Shown here: piece by piece, positions 9,284-29,690 of the stretch
How positions within the stretch are numbered: position 1 is the first letter of the stretch
Layout: the number at the start of each line of letters is the position of its first letter
Source of the DNA: Candidatus Gottesmanbacteria bacterium
Lineage (GTDB): Bacteria; Patescibacteriota; Microgenomatia; UBA10105
Direction: 5' to 3'
Length of the DNA: 32,271 nt
NCBI GenBank assembly: GCA_023245415.1
Contig: JAHFKJ010000016.1
Span: 1-32,271 of the forward strand
Translations under genes and position numbers: made by a program
Notes under the pieces: model-generated
What the model was told of the DNA's origin: nothing
What the model saw: the letters and a program-made list of their open reading frames with translations, nothing else
Databases searched by the model: none

Positions 9284-9318
9284 AAAGCTAAGCTTTTAAT
9301 TCGTCAAAGCTTAGCTTT
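9284..9318. repeat. Stem-loop repeat AAAGCTAAGCTTT-N9-AAAGCTTAGCTTT
   Basis: Perfect 13-bp arms; also at 14980-15010 and 23466-23500. Confidence 0.8.
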
Positions 9319-9378
9319 AGACAGGGTGATGCTTGGGAAAAACTGAATTCACTCAATATTATCAATTGAAAAATTAAA

Positions 9379-14979: not shown

Positions 14980-15010
14980 AAAGCTTAGCTTTGTTGCAAA
15001 GCTAAGCTTT
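14980..15010. repeat. Stem-loop repeat AAAGCTTAGCTTT-GTTGC-AAAGCTAAGCTTT
   Basis: Perfect 13-bp arms. Confidence 0.8.
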
Positions 15011-15114: not shown

Positions 15115-15261
15115 ATGAATCAAAATCATATTCGAAACTTTTGTATAATTGCCCATATAGATCATGGCAAGTCCACGCTTGCCCCAGTACAACACTTGCC
15201 ATTCGCGAGGTTTACATCCTCGCCTCATGGTGGCGCGTGTACGGGGCTGCGCTTATACTGA
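15115..15261 (+). pseudogene. N-terminal lepA relic (MNQNHIRNFCIIAHIDHGKSTLA) fused to palindrome; a 48-codon ORF
   Basis: First 23 codons (15115-15183) align with the intact lepA start (MNQVNIRNFCIIAHIDHGKSTLA) with nucleotide differences. Similarity stops where the palindrome begins. Confidence 0.85.
15182..15246. repeat. REP-like palindromic element, upstream lepA junction
   Basis: CCCCAGTAC...GTACGGGG arms; inner hairpin GCGAGG-TTTACAT-CCTCGC. Confidence 0.75.
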
Positions 15262-15264
15262 AGT

Positions 15265-17406
15265 ATGAATCAAGTTAATATCAGAAACTTTTGTATAATT
15301 GCCCACATAGATCACGGCAAGTCCACGCTTGCGGATCGGTTGTTGGAAATGACTGGAACGATCCAAAAACGGGACATGCAGGAACAAATCCTCGATTCCA
15401 ATCCGATTGAGCGCGAACGGGGAATCACGATTAAATTAGCCCCCGTACGTATGGTTTATAGAATCAAGAAGCAGGAAGCAGGAAGCAAAGAGGGTACTAA
15501 TACTTCAGATTCCATAATTTATGATTCTCAACTCTTTATTCTAAATTTAATAGACACTCCGGGGCATGTAGATTTTAATTATGAAGTTTCCCGATCGCTG
15601 GCAGCTTGTGAAGGAGTTATTTTGGTCGTTGATGCGACTCAGGGAGTACAGGCCCAAACTCTAGCTAATCTGGCGCTTGCACGAAAACATAAATTAACGA
15701 TAATTCCCGTAATCAACAAAATTGATTTGCCAAATGCCCAAATTGATCTAGTTAGGAGAGAGTTGGAGCATTTAAATTTCCGTGCGGATGAAATTTTGGA
15801 AATTTCCGCTAAGACTGGCAAAAACGTTGACCAAGTGCTAAATGCAGTGATAGAACGCGTTCCCGATCCACATGGGATTCCCGATGCTCCGCTTCGGGCA
15901 CTTATTTTCTCTTCCCAATATGATGCACACAAAGGAGTGGTGGTATATGTGCGGGTGGTGGATGGAATAATTAGCGTTGAGCGTTTAGCGTCTAGCGTAC
16001 AGGAAAAGTTGAAATTTATGGCAACGAATACTGAAATTGTGCCGATTGAAGTCGGGTACTTCAATCCCGGCATGAAAACTTCAGATGGTCTAAAAACCGG
16101 TGAAGTCGGCTACATTGCTACAGGTCTCAAAGAAGTAGGTCTGGCGAATGTGGGAGATACGGTGACAGTTGTCAGTGATAAGTTGTCAGTTGTAAGTGGA
16201 ATAAAGCACAACTCACAACTCACAACTCATAACCTACTGCCATTACCCGGTTATCAAGAGCCTAAACCGATGGTTTTTTTGGGACTGTTTCCGATCAATA
16301 GTGATGAGTACGAAGATGTGCGTGAAGCGATGGGGAAATTACGCCTTTCAGACAGCGCTTTTACATATAAACCAATCTCTTCTTTGGCTCTTGGGAATGG
16401 ATTCCACTGTGGTTTTTTGGGTCTTTTACATGCGGAAATTGTTCAGGAACGGCTCAACCGGGAGTTTAGTTTGGCAATCCTTGCTACCGCGCCAACGGTG
16501 GAATATAGGATTAGAATTAAGAATCAGGAATTAAGAATTAGAAAAAAGGTCATCCTGAGTGAAACGAAGGATCTAGCGAAGCGAAACGACTCTTCGAGTC
16601 CAGATTATTCATCGATTAAACCGATTCAGAATGACAATTTAACAGTTGTCCAATCAGCTTCTGAATTTCCTGATCCCGCAATGATTGATCAATCTTTTGA
16701 GCCGGTGATGGAGGTGGCTATTTTTTCCCCAAAAAAGTATACGGGAAATGTAATGCAATTATGTCAAAATAAGCGTGCGGAGTTTATAGATATGAAATAT
16801 ATTAGTGATGTTTCTGTCGTGCTGAACTCGTTTCAGCATCTCAATGAGATCCCGAAATCCATTCGGCAGGCTCAGGATCCTGAGTTTACCGAAGGACAAG
16901 TTCGGGATGACGACCTTGATTCGACACTGGTTCAATTTACCTATATTATGCCTTTATCTGAAATGATTATTGACTTTTTTGACAATCTTAAAAGCGCCAG
17001 CGAAGGTTATGCTTCACTAGACTACCAGTTGTTTGATTATCAACCAGTTGAGCTCGTTAAGCTGGATATATTACTCAATCATGAAAAAGTGGATGCGTTT
17101 AGCCAACTGGTGGTAAAAGAGCGGGCTCATTATTTAGGAAAAATGATGGTTGATAAACTGAAAGATGTGTTGCCTCGACAACAGTTTGCGATACCCGTCC
17201 AGGCGGCAATTGGCGGGGAAATCATCGCTCGGGCAGATGTGAAGCCGTTTAGGAAAGATGTAACGCAAAAATTGTATGGAGGAGATAGGACGCGCAAAGA
17301 TAAGCTTCTGGAAGCACAGAAAAAAGGCAAGGCGCGTATGAAAAAAATAGGCCGTGTGGAAATACCATTAAGTACATTTATGGAAGTATTTAAAAATCAA
17401 TCTTGA
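15265..17406 (+). CDS. lepA: Elongation factor 4 (LepA) with several in-frame insertions
   Basis: NFCIIAHIDHGKSTLADRLLE, RERGITIKLAPV, DTPGHVDF, NKIDLP, FRKDVTQKLYGGDRTRKDKLLEAQKKGKARMKKIGRVEIP. Confidence 0.95.
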   Translation: MNQVNIRNFCIIAHIDHGKSTLADRLLEMTGTIQKRDMQEQILDSNPIERERGITIKLAPVRMVYRIKKQEAGSKEGTNTSDSIIYDSQLFILNLIDTPGHVDFNYEVSRSLAACEGVILVVDATQGVQAQTLANLALARKHKLTIIPVINKIDLPNAQIDLVRRELEHLNFRADEILEISAKTGKNVDQVLNAVIERVPDPHGIPDAPLRALIFSSQYDAHKGVVVYVRVVDGIISVERLASSVQEKLKFMATNTEIVPIEVGYFNPGMKTSDGLKTGEVGYIATGLKEVGLANVGDTVTVVSDKLSVVSGIKHNSQLTTHNLLPLPGYQEPKPMVFLGLFPINSDEYEDVREAMGKLRLSDSAFTYKPISSLALGNGFHCGFLGLLHAEIVQERLNREFSLAILATAPTVEYRIRIKNQELRIRKKVILSETKDLAKRNDSSSPDYSSIKPIQNDNLTVVQSASEFPDPAMIDQSFEPVMEVAIFSPKKYTGNVMQLCQNKRAEFIDMKYISDVSVVLNSFQHLNEIPKSIRQAQDPEFTEGQVRDDDLDSTLVQFTYIMPLSEMIIDFFDNLKSASEGYASLDYQLFDYQPVELVKLDILLNHEKVDAFSQLVVKERAHYLGKMMVDKLKDVLPRQQFAIPVQAAIGGEIIARADVKPFRKDVTQKLYGGDRTRKDKLLEAQKKGKARMKKIGRVEIPLSTFMEVFKNQS

Positions 17407-17416
17407 CTCGCGCCGC

Positions 17417-17487
17417 AGTCCCGTACTGCCGCTCTTCGTGGGTGCGAGGCTGTAAGCCTCCAACACGAAGTAAGGCTAGTACTGGGG
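17417..17487. repeat. REP-like palindromic element, downstream lepA junction, inverted relative to 15182-15246
   Basis: CTTCGTG/CACGAAG stem, GAGGCT-GTA-AGCCTC hairpin, CCCGTACT...AGTACTGGGG outer arms. Its reverse complement aligns with the upstream element. Confidence 0.75.
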
Positions 17488-17488
17488 T

Positions 17489-17563
17489 AAAAAGAAAATG
17501 AAGATGGTAGGAAGAGTTGAAATTCCTCAGGAAGCGTTCCTCAAAGTATTTAAGCAAAGTTGA
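17489..17563 (+). pseudogene. C-terminal lepA relic (KKKMKMVGRVEIPQEAFLKVFKQS*)
   Basis: Aligns with intact LepA C-terminus KGKARMKKIGRVEIPLSTFMEVFKNQS* but clearly diverged. Confidence 0.85.
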
Positions 17564-17646
17564 ATGTCAGCCAAAGGCTGATGGGCCTTTGGCCCAAATC
17601 ATTTCGGGACGAATTTAAACACCTCTCGACGCATTTTTAATCGTAC

Positions 17647-18810: not shown

Positions 18811-19521
18811 TCAAAGCTTAGCTTTGAAGAGAAAAAGGAGAAAGTGTAGAACTAATGCGTTGACTGTGAGAATCACGAGATTAATCCCAATCACGATTCC
18901 CAAAGTATAACTGAGATTGAGTAGCAGGATGTTTGCAATTTGTAAGAGCTGGCCGGTGAGAGCGATGCGCAGGCCAAAATAGTAGCTTAAGAAGCCGAGA
19001 ATTGCCAAGATGAGGAAAATACCGAGCGAACCTTCCAGATCTTTTTTTGAGGAGAACATACTATTGGATATGGCAAAAAGAAAATAGCCAATCAATAGGG
19101 TTAAACCAGCTCTTTGGATGAGGATAGTTGTCTGAGAAATGAATGTCTGCCACACATACAGCAAACTTATTGTCATGATAAGTCCTACTAAAAATGGTGC
19201 AATCCCTACCAAAAAGCGTCGGATCTGATCAGTGTTACCAATTTTAAGTGAACCCATTTTGACTTCCTGGGTGTTTTTGTCTGCTGATTCAACAAGGGGA
19301 ATGAAGCTTATTTCTCCGGTGGGAACTCGCAGAATTTCCGCGATCATCAGATGTGCCAGTTCATGAATGATGGTGCCGGGTAGATAGATGATCGTTAAGA
19401 TCGATATCGCGATACTTCTTACACGTACGATTCGAAGTAGCAAATTATAGAGAATTGAAGTTAGGTGAGATGACAGGAAATATAGGATGAGAAGTTCAGC
19501 GATGATGGTTAAAATAAGCAT
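18811..19521 (-). CDS. Membrane metallopeptidase-like protein (M50-like HExxH)
   Basis: TIIHELAHLMIAEIL within a multi-TM protein. Confidence 0.6.
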   Translation of the reverse strand: MLILTIIAELLILYFLSSHLTSILYNLLLRIVRVRSIAISILTIIYLPGTIIHELAHLMIAEILRVPTGEISFIPLVESADKNTQEVKMGSLKIGNTDQIRRFLVGIAPFLVGLIMTISLLYVWQTFISQTTILIQRAGLTLLIGYFLFAISNSMFSSKKDLEGSLGIFLILAILGFLSYYFGLRIALTGQLLQIANILLLNLSYTLGIVIGINLVILTVNALVLHFLLFLFKAKL

Positions 19522-19683: not shown

Positions 19684-19699
19684 GCCGGGGTGATTCAGT
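19684..19699 (+). pseudogene. Candidate 5' tRNA relic (GCCGGGGTGATTCAGT)
   Basis: Matches a tRNA acceptor 5' strand plus start of D-arm; pairs with TCCCGGC at 19885-19891. Confidence 0.5.
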
Positions 19700-19730
19700 T
19701 CCGCCTTCGGCGGATAAAGTCCGAGCAAGT
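19700..19730. repeat. REP-like palindrome upstream of tRNA-Thr
   Basis: CCGCC-TTC-GGCGG hairpin; reverse complement starts ACTTGCTCGG like other members. Confidence 0.45.
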
Positions 19731-19747
19731 CAAATATTTACATTATT

Positions 19748-19819
19748 GCCCGAGTGGCTCAGTGGTAGAGCGAGTACTTGGTAAGTACTAGGTCGGGGGT
19801 TCGATTCCCCCCTCGGGCT
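19748..19819 (+). tRNA. tRNA-Thr (anticodon GGT), CCA not encoded
   Basis: Acceptor GCCCGAG/CTCGGGC, D-stem GCTC/GAGC, anticodon stem AGTAC/GTACT with loop TTGGTAA, T-arm GGGGG-TTCGATT-CCCCC. Confidence 0.95.
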
Positions 19820-19825
19820 CAAATC

Positions 19826-19862
19826 GCAAGCGCAGGCGTGGATGTAAACCACGCGAGCAAGT
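19826..19862. repeat. REP-like palindrome downstream of tRNA-Thr
   Basis: GCGTGG-ATGTAAA-CCACGC hairpin; reverse complement ACTTGCTCGCGTGGTTTACATCCACGCC matches the lepA-upstream element with a compensatory change. Confidence 0.65.
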
Positions 19863-19876
19863 AAGATTGATTTGGG

Positions 19877-19893
19877 GATCCCTTTCCCGGCTC
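19877..19893 (+). pseudogene. Candidate 3' tRNA relic (GATCCCTTTCCCGGCTC)
   Basis: 3' T-stem/acceptor-like strand complementary to the relic at 19684. Confidence 0.5.
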
Positions 19894-23441: not shown

Positions 23442-23500
23442 TGAGGCTAATTTAGCCTCATATTTAAAGCTAAGCTTTTTATCCGTCAAAGCTTAGCTTT
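23442..23500. repeat. Two adjacent perfect hairpins: TGAGGCTAA-T-TTAGCCTCA and AAAGCTAAGCTTT-N9-AAAGCTTAGCTTT
   Basis: Exact inverted repeats. Confidence 0.8.
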
Positions 23501-23567
23501 ATTGGACAATCTACATTTTATCCGTTATAGCATAGCTTTTTCTGATCTGCCGCCCTGCGTGACACCC

Positions 23568-25004: not shown

Positions 25005-28000
25005 TCATTTAAGCAGTATTTTTGAGAAAGACCGTCTTATGAATAACGTTAAGGGATTGCATTGAATTATAGAACTTGTCTTACAAAGTAAAAACAAAAA
25101 CGGTACCGGAAGCAATCCAAACCCCACGAATTCCAATATCTGCGGCCAGAAGAATATATATATGGTTGTAGGTGGTAAGTTATGAGTTGTAAGTTTTTTT
25201 ACACCATATAAATCTGCCTTTCCAGTCTCACAACCTACAACCCACAACTTACAACTATTTAACACCCACCCATTCGCCCAGTTATTGACGAGAACGTGAT
25301 TTGTCAACTGCTCTCCGAATATAAAAGGTAGAAAATTAGCTAACTTACATCTCACAACTGATAACTCACAACTTGGCAATAGATACGCCACCCAGCCAGT
25401 ATTAAAGCTTTGAGATAACACAAGTGTTGGTTGTAAATTGCTTGTCCTGAGTGGTTCGACCGCGTTCACCATAAACAGAGTCGAAGGATCAGTTAGATCC
25501 TGTAACTTGTCCATATTTAAAGTGACCCAATATTCCGCCGGATTTGGGTGAGTTGACGAAATTGTGTTTGTTGAAAGTAACGTTTTTTGAAAGTTGATAG
25601 AAGAATCAGTAAGCTTCATTTGGCTCAAAAAATGATAGGGTATAGGATATATTTTGATTCTCTTAATATCATTTATAGTAGGAACGCGACCGATGGAGTT
25701 GTTATCAAGACTTAAGTTATAACCGATACCTGAAGCTTCAAGTGGTGGAATCACTATATAGTCTTGAAAAAAACCATTTACATCAAGTAGGGTAGGTTCA
25801 ATATAAGTATCTAAAATAGTTCTGCGATTCTCTTTGTTTACCATTGTAAAAAGCAAATTTTTACCTTCGATATGACGAGCTTCGATTTCAACTAAGTAAC
25901 TTTGGAATTGGGGTAATTGTGGTAGAAAAATATTGACACAGTTACTGGAGTCGATACTTTTAAGTCGCAAAATTTTTTCTCCCTTTTCTTCAAGCTGCTG
26001 ATGTTCGTAAATGCCCGTATTTAATTCATCACAGCTTTTCGGTGGTTGGTTCAGGTCAGCAGTAGTTGAACTATCATAATGATAAGCATTATGTGTTTTG
26101 GGGACATCTATCGTTAAATTAGTTTCATTTGAAACTTGAATTTTTATATCTGTTGGTGAACTTGCGGTTTTCTCATTCAATTGGATTATCAGTGTATCGT
26201 TTGATGATATTTTAGGAAAATCAGTTTTTTGATTAGTTATAGATATCCCATCGTATTGAGGGATGTGAAGTGTATAGTTATTAATTGACTTTGGTAAGAT
26301 TGTCGTGATTTTATAACTGCTAGAACTTTCTTTGACGATAAATCCCAATTCTTTCTGTGACCTGCCCGTAAACAATGAACGAAATGGATAATAGATATCA
26401 ATCTTTTGGTTACCATCGCTTATATACGAGCCATATTCATGGTAGGCATTGTCAAAGTCATTCCATTGATACAGGGGATATATATTGGGAGGTTTCTGAT
26501 AAAGTGACACAAAATTTTGTACATCATTTTTATCATGTTTGACGGTGTATAGTTCAAGAGATGAAAAAGTTCTAACCTTTAGTACTTTGTCTGACTTAGT
26601 AAGTATTTTTTCCAATTCGTCAAGGTAAAGTGCTCGGTAATAAGCTGCGTTGATGATATTTTTATCAACAAGCAGCGTCTCAATATGGTATTTGTCTAAT
26701 AAGTTTTCAAAATTGGCTCCATTTGATTGATAAAGACTTTGAGATAATTCCCAATAAAAATTTTCATTCTTGTCGCTCCACGGATCAAATGCGCGGTCTA
26801 TAGTTGGTTGTGCTAAGCCAAACCATTGAAAACCTGAGTTGATCACGCCCCATTTATATTGAGTCCAAGCCCAATACCAGGGAGCTGGTAGCACGGCGAT
26901 ACGTGAGTTAGGGCTTTCTTTATCGAGATAGTTAAACAAGGCAAAATATTCTTGAGGAATATTTGTACGCAAACGGTTGTAAACAAAATCGCCTGTAAAA
27001 GAAGGAAGGTTATAGAGAGCCAGAAATAAAAGTATTAAGCCGATTGAAGCGTACAGTGTTAATTTGTTGCTAAGACGACTCAAGAAAAGGCTTATTTTCT
27101 GTAGTCCATAAACAAGCAAAATTGTGTACGCAAAAGCATAAGCTATAAAAAATTTGGTAAACACAAAGCGAAAAACGTTGTGAAATAGAGGTACATAGGT
27201 ACGCAAGAGATAGGAAAACACGTTTAAGATAGGGATATCATTGCCGATAATTAAAAAGGTGAATATAAAAATAAGTAAAAATGGATACATAATTTTCCGT
27301 TTTTCTTTGAGGATCAAAAATGAGCCGGAGATAGTCAGTGCAAAAAATGTCCATCCTATAAATTCAATGCTGATATTGTTGAGATGATCTTTCCATGGGG
27401 CAAACATCATAACTTGTTGACTCGTTTGCCAGTCATATTGGATATAATCCAGATCAAACCCCCGCATCAAAGCGGTATTTTTGAAGTCGCCATATTTATG
27501 ATTTTTAAGAAAAATATCGTCCGTTGCCATTTGATTATTTTTCGAATTCGCAATGATTGAGGAATTTTTTATTGCAGATATAGTAAAAGGCAGCCCCCAA
27601 TAAGCATTTGTACAGAATGTAATCAGAACTATTGCTAAGATCGGCTTAAAAGCTTTTTTGCGGTTTTGGATGAGTTGTGTGATGAGCATTATGCTTAGGA
27701 TGAGTATGTAAACAAGAAAAACGGTGGGCACATGAGCTTGGGGAGTCGCTAAAAATGAAAATAGGCCGAAAAACAGGATTGATTTGCGTGTCGGGTGTTC
27801 AAAATAGTGGAGCAACGTAACTATCAAAATGGGTAAAAAGGCAAAGTGTACCAGGAATGGTTCAAATGGAAGGTAAAACATTTGCACGACGGCAAAGTTG
27901 TATTGATAAAATATAGCTCCAATAAAGGCGAAAGTTTTGACATGTATATATAAAAGTTCATGAGGAGGGGCAATTTTCTTAAGTACATATCTTAGTAATA

Positions 28001-28337
28001 CGTACATACCGATACCGCCTATACAGTGCATAGAAAAAACAAATACATATCTCAATACATTCTGTGGAAAAATCCATGAGAGGACATATATAAATAAATA
28101 ATGAGGTAGATTTGCAGCATGAGACAAACCGTCTTCCAAGCCTAACCCTCGGTATTCTTGCCAAACTGCAAATATAACTCGCTTGAAGTTCAAACCAAAG
28201 TTTAGTTCAGGAAAAAGATTGTCCCAACCGATTAAGTAAGTATGAGGAGTATAGTTAAAAAAAAATAAAACCAACTCAATAAGAATAATCGTAAGAATCG
28301 GCCAGTAATTCTTAATCAGTTTTACAAGTGCTTTCAT
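25005..28337 (-). CDS. Large multi-TM membrane protein, probable glycosyltransferase-like (YfhO/GT-C type)
   Basis: 1110 aa with about a dozen hydrophobic segments and a long extracytoplasmic region; adjacent to a GT2 gene. Confidence 0.5.
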   Translation of the reverse strand: MKALVKLIKNYWPILTIILIELVLFFFNYTPHTYLIGWDNLFPELNFGLNFKRVIFAVWQEYRGLGLEDGLSHAANLPHYLFIYVLSWIFPQNVLRYVFVFSMHCIGGIGMYVLLRYVLKKIAPPHELLYIHVKTFAFIGAIFYQYNFAVVQMFYLPFEPFLVHFAFLPILIVTLLHYFEHPTRKSILFFGLFSFLATPQAHVPTVFLVYILILSIMLITQLIQNRKKAFKPILAIVLITFCTNAYWGLPFTISAIKNSSIIANSKNNQMATDDIFLKNHKYGDFKNTALMRGFDLDYIQYDWQTSQQVMMFAPWKDHLNNISIEFIGWTFFALTISGSFLILKEKRKIMYPFLLIFIFTFLIIGNDIPILNVFSYLLRTYVPLFHNVFRFVFTKFFIAYAFAYTILLVYGLQKISLFLSRLSNKLTLYASIGLILLFLALYNLPSFTGDFVYNRLRTNIPQEYFALFNYLDKESPNSRIAVLPAPWYWAWTQYKWGVINSGFQWFGLAQPTIDRAFDPWSDKNENFYWELSQSLYQSNGANFENLLDKYHIETLLVDKNIINAAYYRALYLDELEKILTKSDKVLKVRTFSSLELYTVKHDKNDVQNFVSLYQKPPNIYPLYQWNDFDNAYHEYGSYISDGNQKIDIYYPFRSLFTGRSQKELGFIVKESSSSYKITTILPKSINNYTLHIPQYDGISITNQKTDFPKISSNDTLIIQLNEKTASSPTDIKIQVSNETNLTIDVPKTHNAYHYDSSTTADLNQPPKSCDELNTGIYEHQQLEEKGEKILRLKSIDSSNCVNIFLPQLPQFQSYLVEIEARHIEGKNLLFTMVNKENRRTILDTYIEPTLLDVNGFFQDYIVIPPLEASGIGYNLSLDNNSIGRVPTINDIKRIKIYPIPYHFLSQMKLTDSSINFQKTLLSTNTISSTHPNPAEYWVTLNMDKLQDLTDPSTLFMVNAVEPLRTSNLQPTLVLSQSFNTGWVAYLLPSCELSVVRCKLANFLPFIFGEQLTNHVLVNNWANGWVLNSCKLWVVGCETGKADLYGVKKLTTHNLPPTTIYIFFWPQILEFVGFGLLPVPFLFLLCKTSSIIQCNPLTLFIRRSFSKILLK

Positions 28338-28346
28338 AGGTAAGTC

Positions 28347-29690
28347 TCACCTACTAAGCGTAGCGTATTTTCTAAAATTTGATAAGGAGGGAAGTTTAAA
28401 TCCCACTTTCGTTGGTCTAATTCCGCGCACTAGCATATATAAGGGCACGATGAGTCTTTCTGGGATTGGTAGGACAACCATGACCTGTCCAATCATACAT
28501 AAGAGTGCCTTCATGGACAATACATATTGTAAATGTCTTATGGCTACTATGCGAATCTTAATCGAATCAATAAACTTAGCTTTCGGTTGAGATAATGACA
28601 TATTTTTGCCATGCATGCGATATTTCAATAAATACTCTGGTAGATTGGCAAACTGGCCGTAATTTAAAAACTTAAAAAACGTATAGTAATCATCATTCAC
28701 GTTAAATCGCATTTCATAGATGCGATCTTGACGAGGTAACAATGATTTGCGAATCATGACTGAAGGATGGATCATTGGATGGAAGATCCCATATTGACGA
28801 TAAATTTCAGCATGAGTTGTGGGCATATTTTTTTTGCCTACCACTTTTCCATATTTATCGATAACAATGGCCTGCGTACCCAATACAATCGTTTCAGGAT
28901 AGTTTTGCATATATATTACTTGTTTTTCTATTCTTGAGGGGTGTGCGATGTCATCAGCGTCCATACGAGCGATGAGTTCTCCCCGTGATTTGGTAAAGCC
29001 ATAATTCATAGCTCCGTTTCCAGCAGAGTTGGTTTGTTTGGAAGTCGTAAAAACGCGCAGTCTTTGAGGATGCTTTCGTTGGTATTTTTCTGCTATGAGC
29101 AGTGAGTTATCAGTTGAAGCGTCATTGACGACAATCAATTCTAAATTCTTGTAGGTTTGATTAAGAATAGACTCAATTGCTTCCACGAGGAACTGATCGC
29201 CGTTATAGACCGGCATGATGACAGAAACCAGCGGTTTTTTGGTGGACACCGTTGAAAAGGCTTTAATGTCCTGATATGCTATGACCGGTGGAGGGTAAAC
29301 TCCCGAAGCGGGAGCCAAGCCTGATAATCTTAGGGTCCCGGCGCGAGCTGGGATGGAGTGCAAGTCTCCTGCCCTCCGCTCTCTTGACAAGTTAGATGTT
29401 GATGTGTTATTATATAAAGGATTATCAGGCTTGGGGGATTTTGCATTCCCATTGCCCAAAGAAGCCGCTTCGTAAGAGGCGGTTTTTTGATGGGAGAGTT
29501 TCACGATTTCATCGTGATTACTCTCCCACATCCGGCCGGAATGAACATTCGGCTGCGTGGAAGTAGACCACGAGACGAATTTGAGTGAAGGCGGATGGTG
29601 GTTGATTTTTTCATTTTTCCCCACCACCGACCTTCCGGCCATAAGTACCGGATTCAAACATGATTTCAATCGTAGAGTTTGTTGGTTCAT
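28347..29690 (-). CDS. Glycosyltransferase family 2; annotated N-terminal extension probably not translated
   Basis: PLVSVIMPVYNGDQFLVEAIESILNQTYKNLELIVVNDASTDNS and ARMDADDIAHPSR. The first ~150 residues translate a hairpin-rich repeat region. Confidence 0.85.
   Translation of the reverse strand: MNQQTLRLKSCLNPVLMAGRSVVGKNEKINHHPPSLKFVSWSTSTQPNVHSGRMWESNHDEIVKLSHQKTASYEAASLGNGNAKSPKPDNPLYNNTSTSNLSRERRAGDLHSIPARAGTLRLSGLAPASGVYPPPVIAYQDIKAFSTVSTKKPLVSVIMPVYNGDQFLVEAIESILNQTYKNLELIVVNDASTDNSLLIAEKYQRKHPQRLRVFTTSKQTNSAGNGAMNYGFTKSRGELIARMDADDIAHPSRIEKQVIYMQNYPETIVLGTQAIVIDKYGKVVGKKNMPTTHAEIYRQYGIFHPMIHPSVMIRKSLLPRQDRIYEMRFNVNDDYYTFFKFLNYGQFANLPEYLLKYRMHGKNMSLSQPKAKFIDSIKIRIVAIRHLQYVLSMKALLCMIGQVMVVLPIPERLIVPLYMLVRGIRPTKVGFKLPSLSNFRKYATLSR
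29290..29377. other. Candidate structured RNA/multi-hairpin element
   Basis: GGAGGG/CCCTCC closing stem enclosing CTCCCG-AAG-CGGGAG, TCCCGG/CTGGGA and GGAG/CTCC hairpins. Confidence 0.4.
29384..29413 (+). promoter_or_regulatory. Promoter TTGACA-N18-TATTAT for a candidate small RNA
   Basis: No plus-strand ORF follows directly; a terminator follows at 29464-29488. Confidence 0.5.
29420..29488 (+). ncRNA. Candidate ~70-nt small RNA ending in an intrinsic terminator
   Basis: Promoter upstream; TTGGG...CCCAA hairpin; CCGCTTCGTAAGAGGCGGTTTTTT terminator. Confidence 0.4.

Follow-up and report, generated by a model that had tools for sequence, protein, structure and literature searches.

How does a complete tRNA gene come to lie between the two ends of another tRNA? 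The question is raised by a locus in a contig of a Candidatus Gottesmanbacteria bacterium (JAHFKJ010000016.1), all 32,271 nt of which were analysed and are here termed the window. The original prediction, made from the sequence, held that a tRNA-Thr(GGT) flanked by palindromes appears nested within the split ends of a second tRNA, repeating the architecture of the nearby lepA gene, and that two such loci with related palindromes would point to a shared mechanism.

The tRNA-Thr and lepA loci

The tRNA-Thr locus has the following features, in which a relic is what is left of a displaced gene end and P is the hairpin family described below.

19684 to 19699, + strand: 5′ relic of the outer tRNA, covering the acceptor strand and the beginning of the D arm, GCCGGGGTGATTCAGT, which pairs with 19877 to 19893
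19700 to 19714, no strand assigned: short hairpin TCCGCCTTCGGCGGA within the D loop of the relic, of the same short-hairpin class as at loci L143 and L144
19715 to 19747, + strand: linker, which by analogy with other tRNA-Thr loci may include a few more relic nucleotides (TAAAGTCC..), an uncertain assignment
19748 to 19820, + strand: intact tRNA-Thr(GGT), by ARAGORN and Rfam (72 bits)
19817 to 19877, − strand: degenerate P hairpin, 35 bits with the covariance model
19877 to 19893, + strand: 3′ relic of the outer tRNA, from the end of the T loop through the T stem to the acceptor strand, GATCCCTTTCCCGGCTC

The tRNA-like ends proposed on either side of tRNA-Thr were borne out. GCCGGGG of the 5′ relic pairs with TCCCGGC of the 3′ relic at 7/7 positions, one of them a G-T pair, and the acceptor strands of the inner tRNA (GCCCGAG/CTCGGGC) pair with neither outer strand. 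The inner gene is intact, as supposed, and tRNA was the sole match in an Rfam scan of the window, which detected no group I or group II intron RNA. When compared with tRNAs, the outer ends match tRNA-Thr(GGT) of the sister genome (G002) at 23/32 positions and Leu(GAG) at 22/32, so that the Thr identity suggested for the 5′ relic is narrowly the best match and is favoured to that extent. The sister genome carries one tRNA-Thr(GGT), near the orthologous downstream gene, and tRNA-Thr genes with related ends were found in relatives at such loci. The two outer fragments lie outside the repeat family, of which they might have proved to be parts. The 5′ relic is broken at the same tRNA position as the relics of loci L066, L143, L144 and L254, the last of which bears a GIY-YIG endonuclease gene.

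The lepA gene is located 2.3 kb upstream of tRNA-Thr(GGT) and shares its layout, as the original prediction had it; the order at lepA is a relic, a P hairpin, the gene, an inverted P and a second relic.

15115 to 15182, + strand: lepA 5′ relic, in frame (MNQNHIRNFCIIAHIDHGKSTLA)
15183 to 15246, + strand: P hairpin, 72 bits with the covariance model
15265 to 17406, + strand: intact lepA (Pfam LepA_C), grouping with the sister genome
17419 to 17486, − strand: P hairpin, 61 bits with the covariance model
17487 to 17563, + strand: displaced 3′ end of lepA, closing with KKKMKMVGRVEIPQEAFLKVFKQS and a stop codon

At both loci the displaced ends can be read on both sides, and no GIY-YIG gene or remnant of one was seen there. 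An extra small hairpin (CAGCCAAAGGCTG..GGCCTTTGGCC) stands at 17568 to 17599, immediately behind the lepA 3′ relic. Repeats of the ACAACTCACAACT type run in frame inside lepA (16164 to 16240) and also at 25165 to 25373 in a large ORF (25005 to 28337).

Hairpin P in displaced gene ends

P is a hairpin of about 65 nt with a conserved loop and internal loop, in which compensatory changes occur in 14 of 21 pairs; a search of Rfam with one representative (L053) gave no match. The lepA pair and the 3′ palindrome of tRNA-Thr form one covarying family, the latter matching the lepA-flanking hairpins with an E value of 1e-7 and a 23-nt inverted match of 91% identity. At tRNA-Thr, kinship with the lepA palindromes thus holds for the 3′ palindrome; the 5′ one is a different, short hairpin. 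The motif CGNGGTTTACATCCNCG is present in 30/384 genomes of the class, and a reversed control pattern in 0/384. A stricter P pattern gave 35 matches in a single scan of one genome per species (GTDB release 220), where all records named below phylum level belong to Microgenomates lineages.

The covariance model recovers only five P hairpins in the entire 1.55-Mb source genome, four of which sit within a displaced gene end adjoining an intact homologue: lepA 5′, lepA 3′, tRNA-Thr 3′ and rpsI 3′, the last with a relic behind it that reads KQSPKR and stop. The fifth, also in the window, is a partial P hairpin of a second type, upstream of a glycosyltransferase domain and with no relic recognised.

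29548 to 29579, − strand: partial second-type P hairpin (covariance model)

Many P hairpins sit in ordinary intergenic DNA.

The palindromes do not simply mark the junctions. They sit inside the displaced end, which wherever it is readable runs on for 7-9 nt past the hairpin before the functional copy begins; placing P right on the junction is therefore wrong. In 12 cases read by hand, the distance from P to the junction is 8.5 ± 0.8 nt. At uvrA, for example, ATGGA precedes P, TAAAATAAT follows it, and ATGGATAAG begins beyond the junction. The sequences before P and between P and the junction are TGTGA and TGAGACC at tsaD, AGTGG and TAAATAAAACAAA at a tRNA-Thr, and AGCTTAA and CGGATAGAG at a tRNA-Arg; at the 3′ end of ychF the layout is mirrored. 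One tRNA-Thr site carries three different hairpins in three relatives, which indicates that the hairpin is exchangeable while the site stays.

In other genomes, displaced ends split by P recur at mutM, tsaD, ychF, uvrA, mreB, a glycosyltransferase gene, tRNA-Arg, tRNA-Thr and a structured non-coding repeat. The same mutM codon is split in four genomes, both ends of ychF have P-split displaced copies, and the glycosyltransferase gene has two displaced starts in tandem at the same codon. In this order, three genomes (G109, G080 and G050) have a lepA nested on either side, and lepA 3′ relics with other hairpins occur in G119, G090 and the sister genome, where the displaced 3′ end is split by the hairpin. 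Among about 384 ORFs examined irrespective of P, most of them at loci originally picked via P, every protein-gene relic seen had P or another hairpin next to it. The structured non-coding repeat (L061, L092) has its own P-split 5′ relic, and its outer stem at L092 is AATTGCGTC/GACGCAATT. In the lepA 3′ region of G109 (L248), the 3′ end of the gene is present in two near-identical copies, behind each of which come a P and a further relic, and the copies enclose a toxin-antitoxin-like pair (ribbon-helix-helix and HigB-like); cargo besides a nuclease can thus sit at this position.

Eight other tRNA genes of the source genome are flanked by a fragment of their own isotype that none of about 40 tRNAs of other isotypes tested matches as well, and tRNA nesting therefore does not always involve P. 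Together with the same layout in many genomes, these fragments place the nested tRNA-Thr arrangement beyond chance. Own-isotype fragments were noted at Val-GAC, Arg-TCT, Ile-GAT, Asp, Thr-CGT, Pro-CGG and Leu-CAA (L172, L173, L175, L177, L180, L186); tRNA 5′ fragments frequently end at the anticodon loop, and the Val relic resembles a Val/Phe chimera. A few tRNA relics do not differ at all from their intact gene (Val-GAC, 22/22; Lys, 18/18).

Descent of the displaced ends and neighbouring GIY-YIG genes

Codon changes between relic and functional end, summed over 16 pairs, number 102 synonymous and 30 nonsynonymous. Neutral decay of a relic predicts 16 ± 3% synonymous changes, and the 77% observed indicates that both ends diverged as working genes. 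This excess rules out, for the diverged loci, a long target-site duplication followed by decay. Which of the two ends is native can be read from lepA of G050 and G067. The displaced 3′ end of G050 (KMIGRVEIPQSAFFAVLKR) matches G067 and the functional 3′ end does not, while the body of the gene is 79% identical in nucleotides and neighbouring genes are 77-82% identical. In this species pair, sequence comparison shows the displaced end to be native and the functional one foreign. In a tree of functional lepA genes the source genome groups with its sister.

The synonymous excess and the G050/G067 comparison favour, for protein genes, foreign ends grafted onto a native body. A cassette carrying the whole gene is disfavoured by the identity of the G050 lepA body to that of G067. 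The nesting of whole genes that was originally envisaged thus remains the simplest reading for tRNAs, where a complete inserted copy would suffice, but probably does not extend to protein genes. A nested-homologue origin shared by tRNA-Thr and lepA is otherwise upheld by the recurrence of the layout within and across genomes, by the covarying palindromes and by the codon test.

Small GIY-YIG endonuclease genes provide a further clue. In the source genome 4/11 lie within 150 nt of a tRNA (chance about 1%), as do 8 of the best-scoring 27 in a longer list from another genus (chance about 1%). Six tRNA loci show the full order of tRNA 5′ fragment, hairpin, GIY-YIG gene and complete tRNA.

L254, source genome: tRNA-Lys, complete GIY-YIG form
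L258, source genome: tRNA-Ser, complete GIY-YIG form
L273, other genus: tRNA-Gln, complete GIY-YIG form
L275, other genus: tRNA-Glu, complete GIY-YIG form
L288, other genus: tRNA-Asp, complete GIY-YIG form
L291, other genus: tRNA-Ser, complete GIY-YIG form

In each, the GIY-YIG gene is immediately preceded by a 5′ fragment of the tRNA's own kind, split or trailed by the hairpin, and immediately followed by the complete tRNA. The GIY-YIG catalytic domain is detected by Pfam in the tRNA-linked genes; the L254 frame lacks a nearby ATG and was run with its first residues swapped for methionine, while those of L273 and L288 begin with a clear ATG. L254 and L273 carry an identical 36-nt hairpin despite their different tRNAs and different families, and their GIY-YIG proteins are 64% identical. 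In G390 an intact tRNA-Thr and a tRNA-Thr relic enclose a decayed GIY-YIG frame with a weak Pfam match of only 0.011; this locus is the window layout plus an enzyme gene.

The association has bounds. None of the P-bearing protein genes examined had a GIY-YIG gene or a remnant of one, and about two-thirds of the GIY-YIG genes examined do not adjoin a tRNA. No direct repeats were found flanking those away from tRNAs, a set of loci of which the ORF finder missed about one-third, and a fragment test detected no far-side relic where the GIY-YIG gene is downstream of the tRNA.

A proposed homing element and its rivals

Identical layout and spacing tie the P scars to the GIY-YIG-bearing elements. We consider it somewhat probable (about 0.55) that the window locus is a scar, either an ORF-less member or a relic, of an intronless homing element that restores the gene end it enters. 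Such an element would consist of a hairpin and, in its complete form, a small GIY-YIG endonuclease gene. It would enter at a conserved site near a gene end, such as the D loop, anticodon loop or T loop of a tRNA or the first or last codons of a protein gene, presumably after the GIY-YIG protein cuts there. The original end would be left outside, split by the hairpin, and a complete end, often from another species, would be supplied inside, so that the gene keeps working. Copies without an ORF may have arisen from forms encoding such an enzyme or may rely on one made elsewhere, and the same process may act at protein genes, at which GIY-YIG genes were not detected. The broader proposition, held tentatively and at somewhat less than even odds, is that Microgenomates chromosomes harbour a class of such elements, in which P hairpins lacking an ORF are the non-autonomous members and which invades tRNA, non-coding RNA and conserved protein genes at either end, the complete and often foreign end keeping the host alive. 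Against homing stand the intact inner copy, which keeps the presumed target and would have to escape cutting, and the many P hairpins in ordinary intergenic DNA.

Displacement in situ by DNA uptake, in which foreign genes or gene ends recombine in through a homologous junction on one side and an illegitimate one on the other, the native ends stay outside and hairpins land as REPIN-like passengers in the freed relics, is possible though improbable. It would account for the foreign functional ends, for relics without P beside many tRNAs and for chimeric relics such as Val/Phe, but not readily for a distance of 7-9 nt from P to the junction each time, for the use of a single mutM codon in four genomes and of a single codon for both displaced starts of the glycosyltransferase gene, for the confinement of protein-gene relics to the neighbourhood of hairpins among the surveyed ORFs, or for the layout that the GIY-YIG versions share. 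Ends of tRNAs and genes are classic attachment sites, and footprints of integrase-type islands that brought a replacement end and were later deleted would fit this preference as well as the toxin-antitoxin pair between the lepA ends of G109. Yet no tyrosine or serine recombinase was found among the window ORFs scanned, the insert is mostly a hairpin plus a few nucleotides at a fixed spacing, and the gene end used may be the 5′ one, the 3′ one or both, which makes this origin distinctly unlikely.

The tRNA relics that are identical to their intact gene are what one would expect of local tandem duplication by hairpin insertion with subsequent decay of the outer copy. This is very unlikely in the face of the synonymous excess, the native displaced end in G050, and outer tRNA ends that pair with each other and not with the inner gene. 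Most of the genomes are metagenome assemblies, but the same layout appears in independent assemblies of several named Microgenomates lineages, and we give an assembly artefact almost no weight. Two roles for the hairpin were also rejected. A relic with P acting as a guide RNA against the native allele is contradicted by relics that equal the functional copy next to P (17 nt in ychF; 1 mismatch in 20 in lepA), and P is not the REPIN of a RAYT, since the Y1 genes of the source genome carry other hairpins.

The homing reading, if true, would show how essential genes can be invaded unharmed and how native bacterial genes come by foreign ends, leaving readable scars. It also offers a candidate function for many unexplained small GIY-YIG genes of these bacteria, with L254 and tRNA-Lys as a candidate nuclease-target pair, and cautions that gene starts, gene ends and tRNAs in these organisms may differ in history from the gene body.

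Comparison with known systems

The REP/REPIN and RAYT systems have short palindromes in common with these loci, and the source genome has seven Y1 transposases. However, P is rare, at five copies in 1.55 Mb, and differs in sequence from the hairpins beside the Y1 genes of its own genome. Within the window, AAAGCTTAGCTTT repeats (9284 to 9319, 14980 to 14996, 18813 to 18829 and 23466 to 23501) match hairpins beside a Y1 (RAYT-like) transposase of the source genome, L191. Rickettsia palindromic elements are palindromes found in gene sequence, whereas P resides in displaced ends and not in the functional gene. Seg and Mob of T4-like phages are free-standing, intronless homing endonucleases whose genes, like those described here, adjoin the presumed target with no intron; we know of no duplication of the target end, or hairpin inside it, in that system. 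The literature searched, which largely lacked subscription journals, yielded no account of such an arrangement at tRNAs or gene ends.

In rRNA genes of the CPR, GIY-YIG ORFs occur in insertions that are unlike group I or group II introns and that were judged to lie outside homing, in a main text that does not mention tRNA (PMC11270868). These insertions share the radiation and the GIY-YIG ORFs with our loci, but lie within rRNA genes. The closest parallel is provided by the mobile endonuclease ORFs (mORFs) of fungal mitochondria, which graft foreign gene ends onto atp6 of Allomyces and onto atp6, atp9, cox2 and nad3 of Glomus; the native end is pushed outward and clusters with relatives, nucleotide differences are mainly synonymous, and the mORF between the ends encodes a LAGLIDADG protein or, in atp9, a GIY-YIG protein (PMC3630166). 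As in those hybrids, a duplicate gene end flanks the insertion in the Microgenomates loci, and in the G050/G067 lepA comparison the native end is displaced and the functional end is foreign. An endonuclease ORF between the ends is present in the six complete GIY-YIG forms and absent at tRNA-Thr and lepA of the window. Unlike the mORFs, the loci described here are in bacterial chromosomes, involve tRNAs and both 5′ and 3′ ends, usually have no ORF, and carry a conserved hairpin 7-9 nt from the junction.
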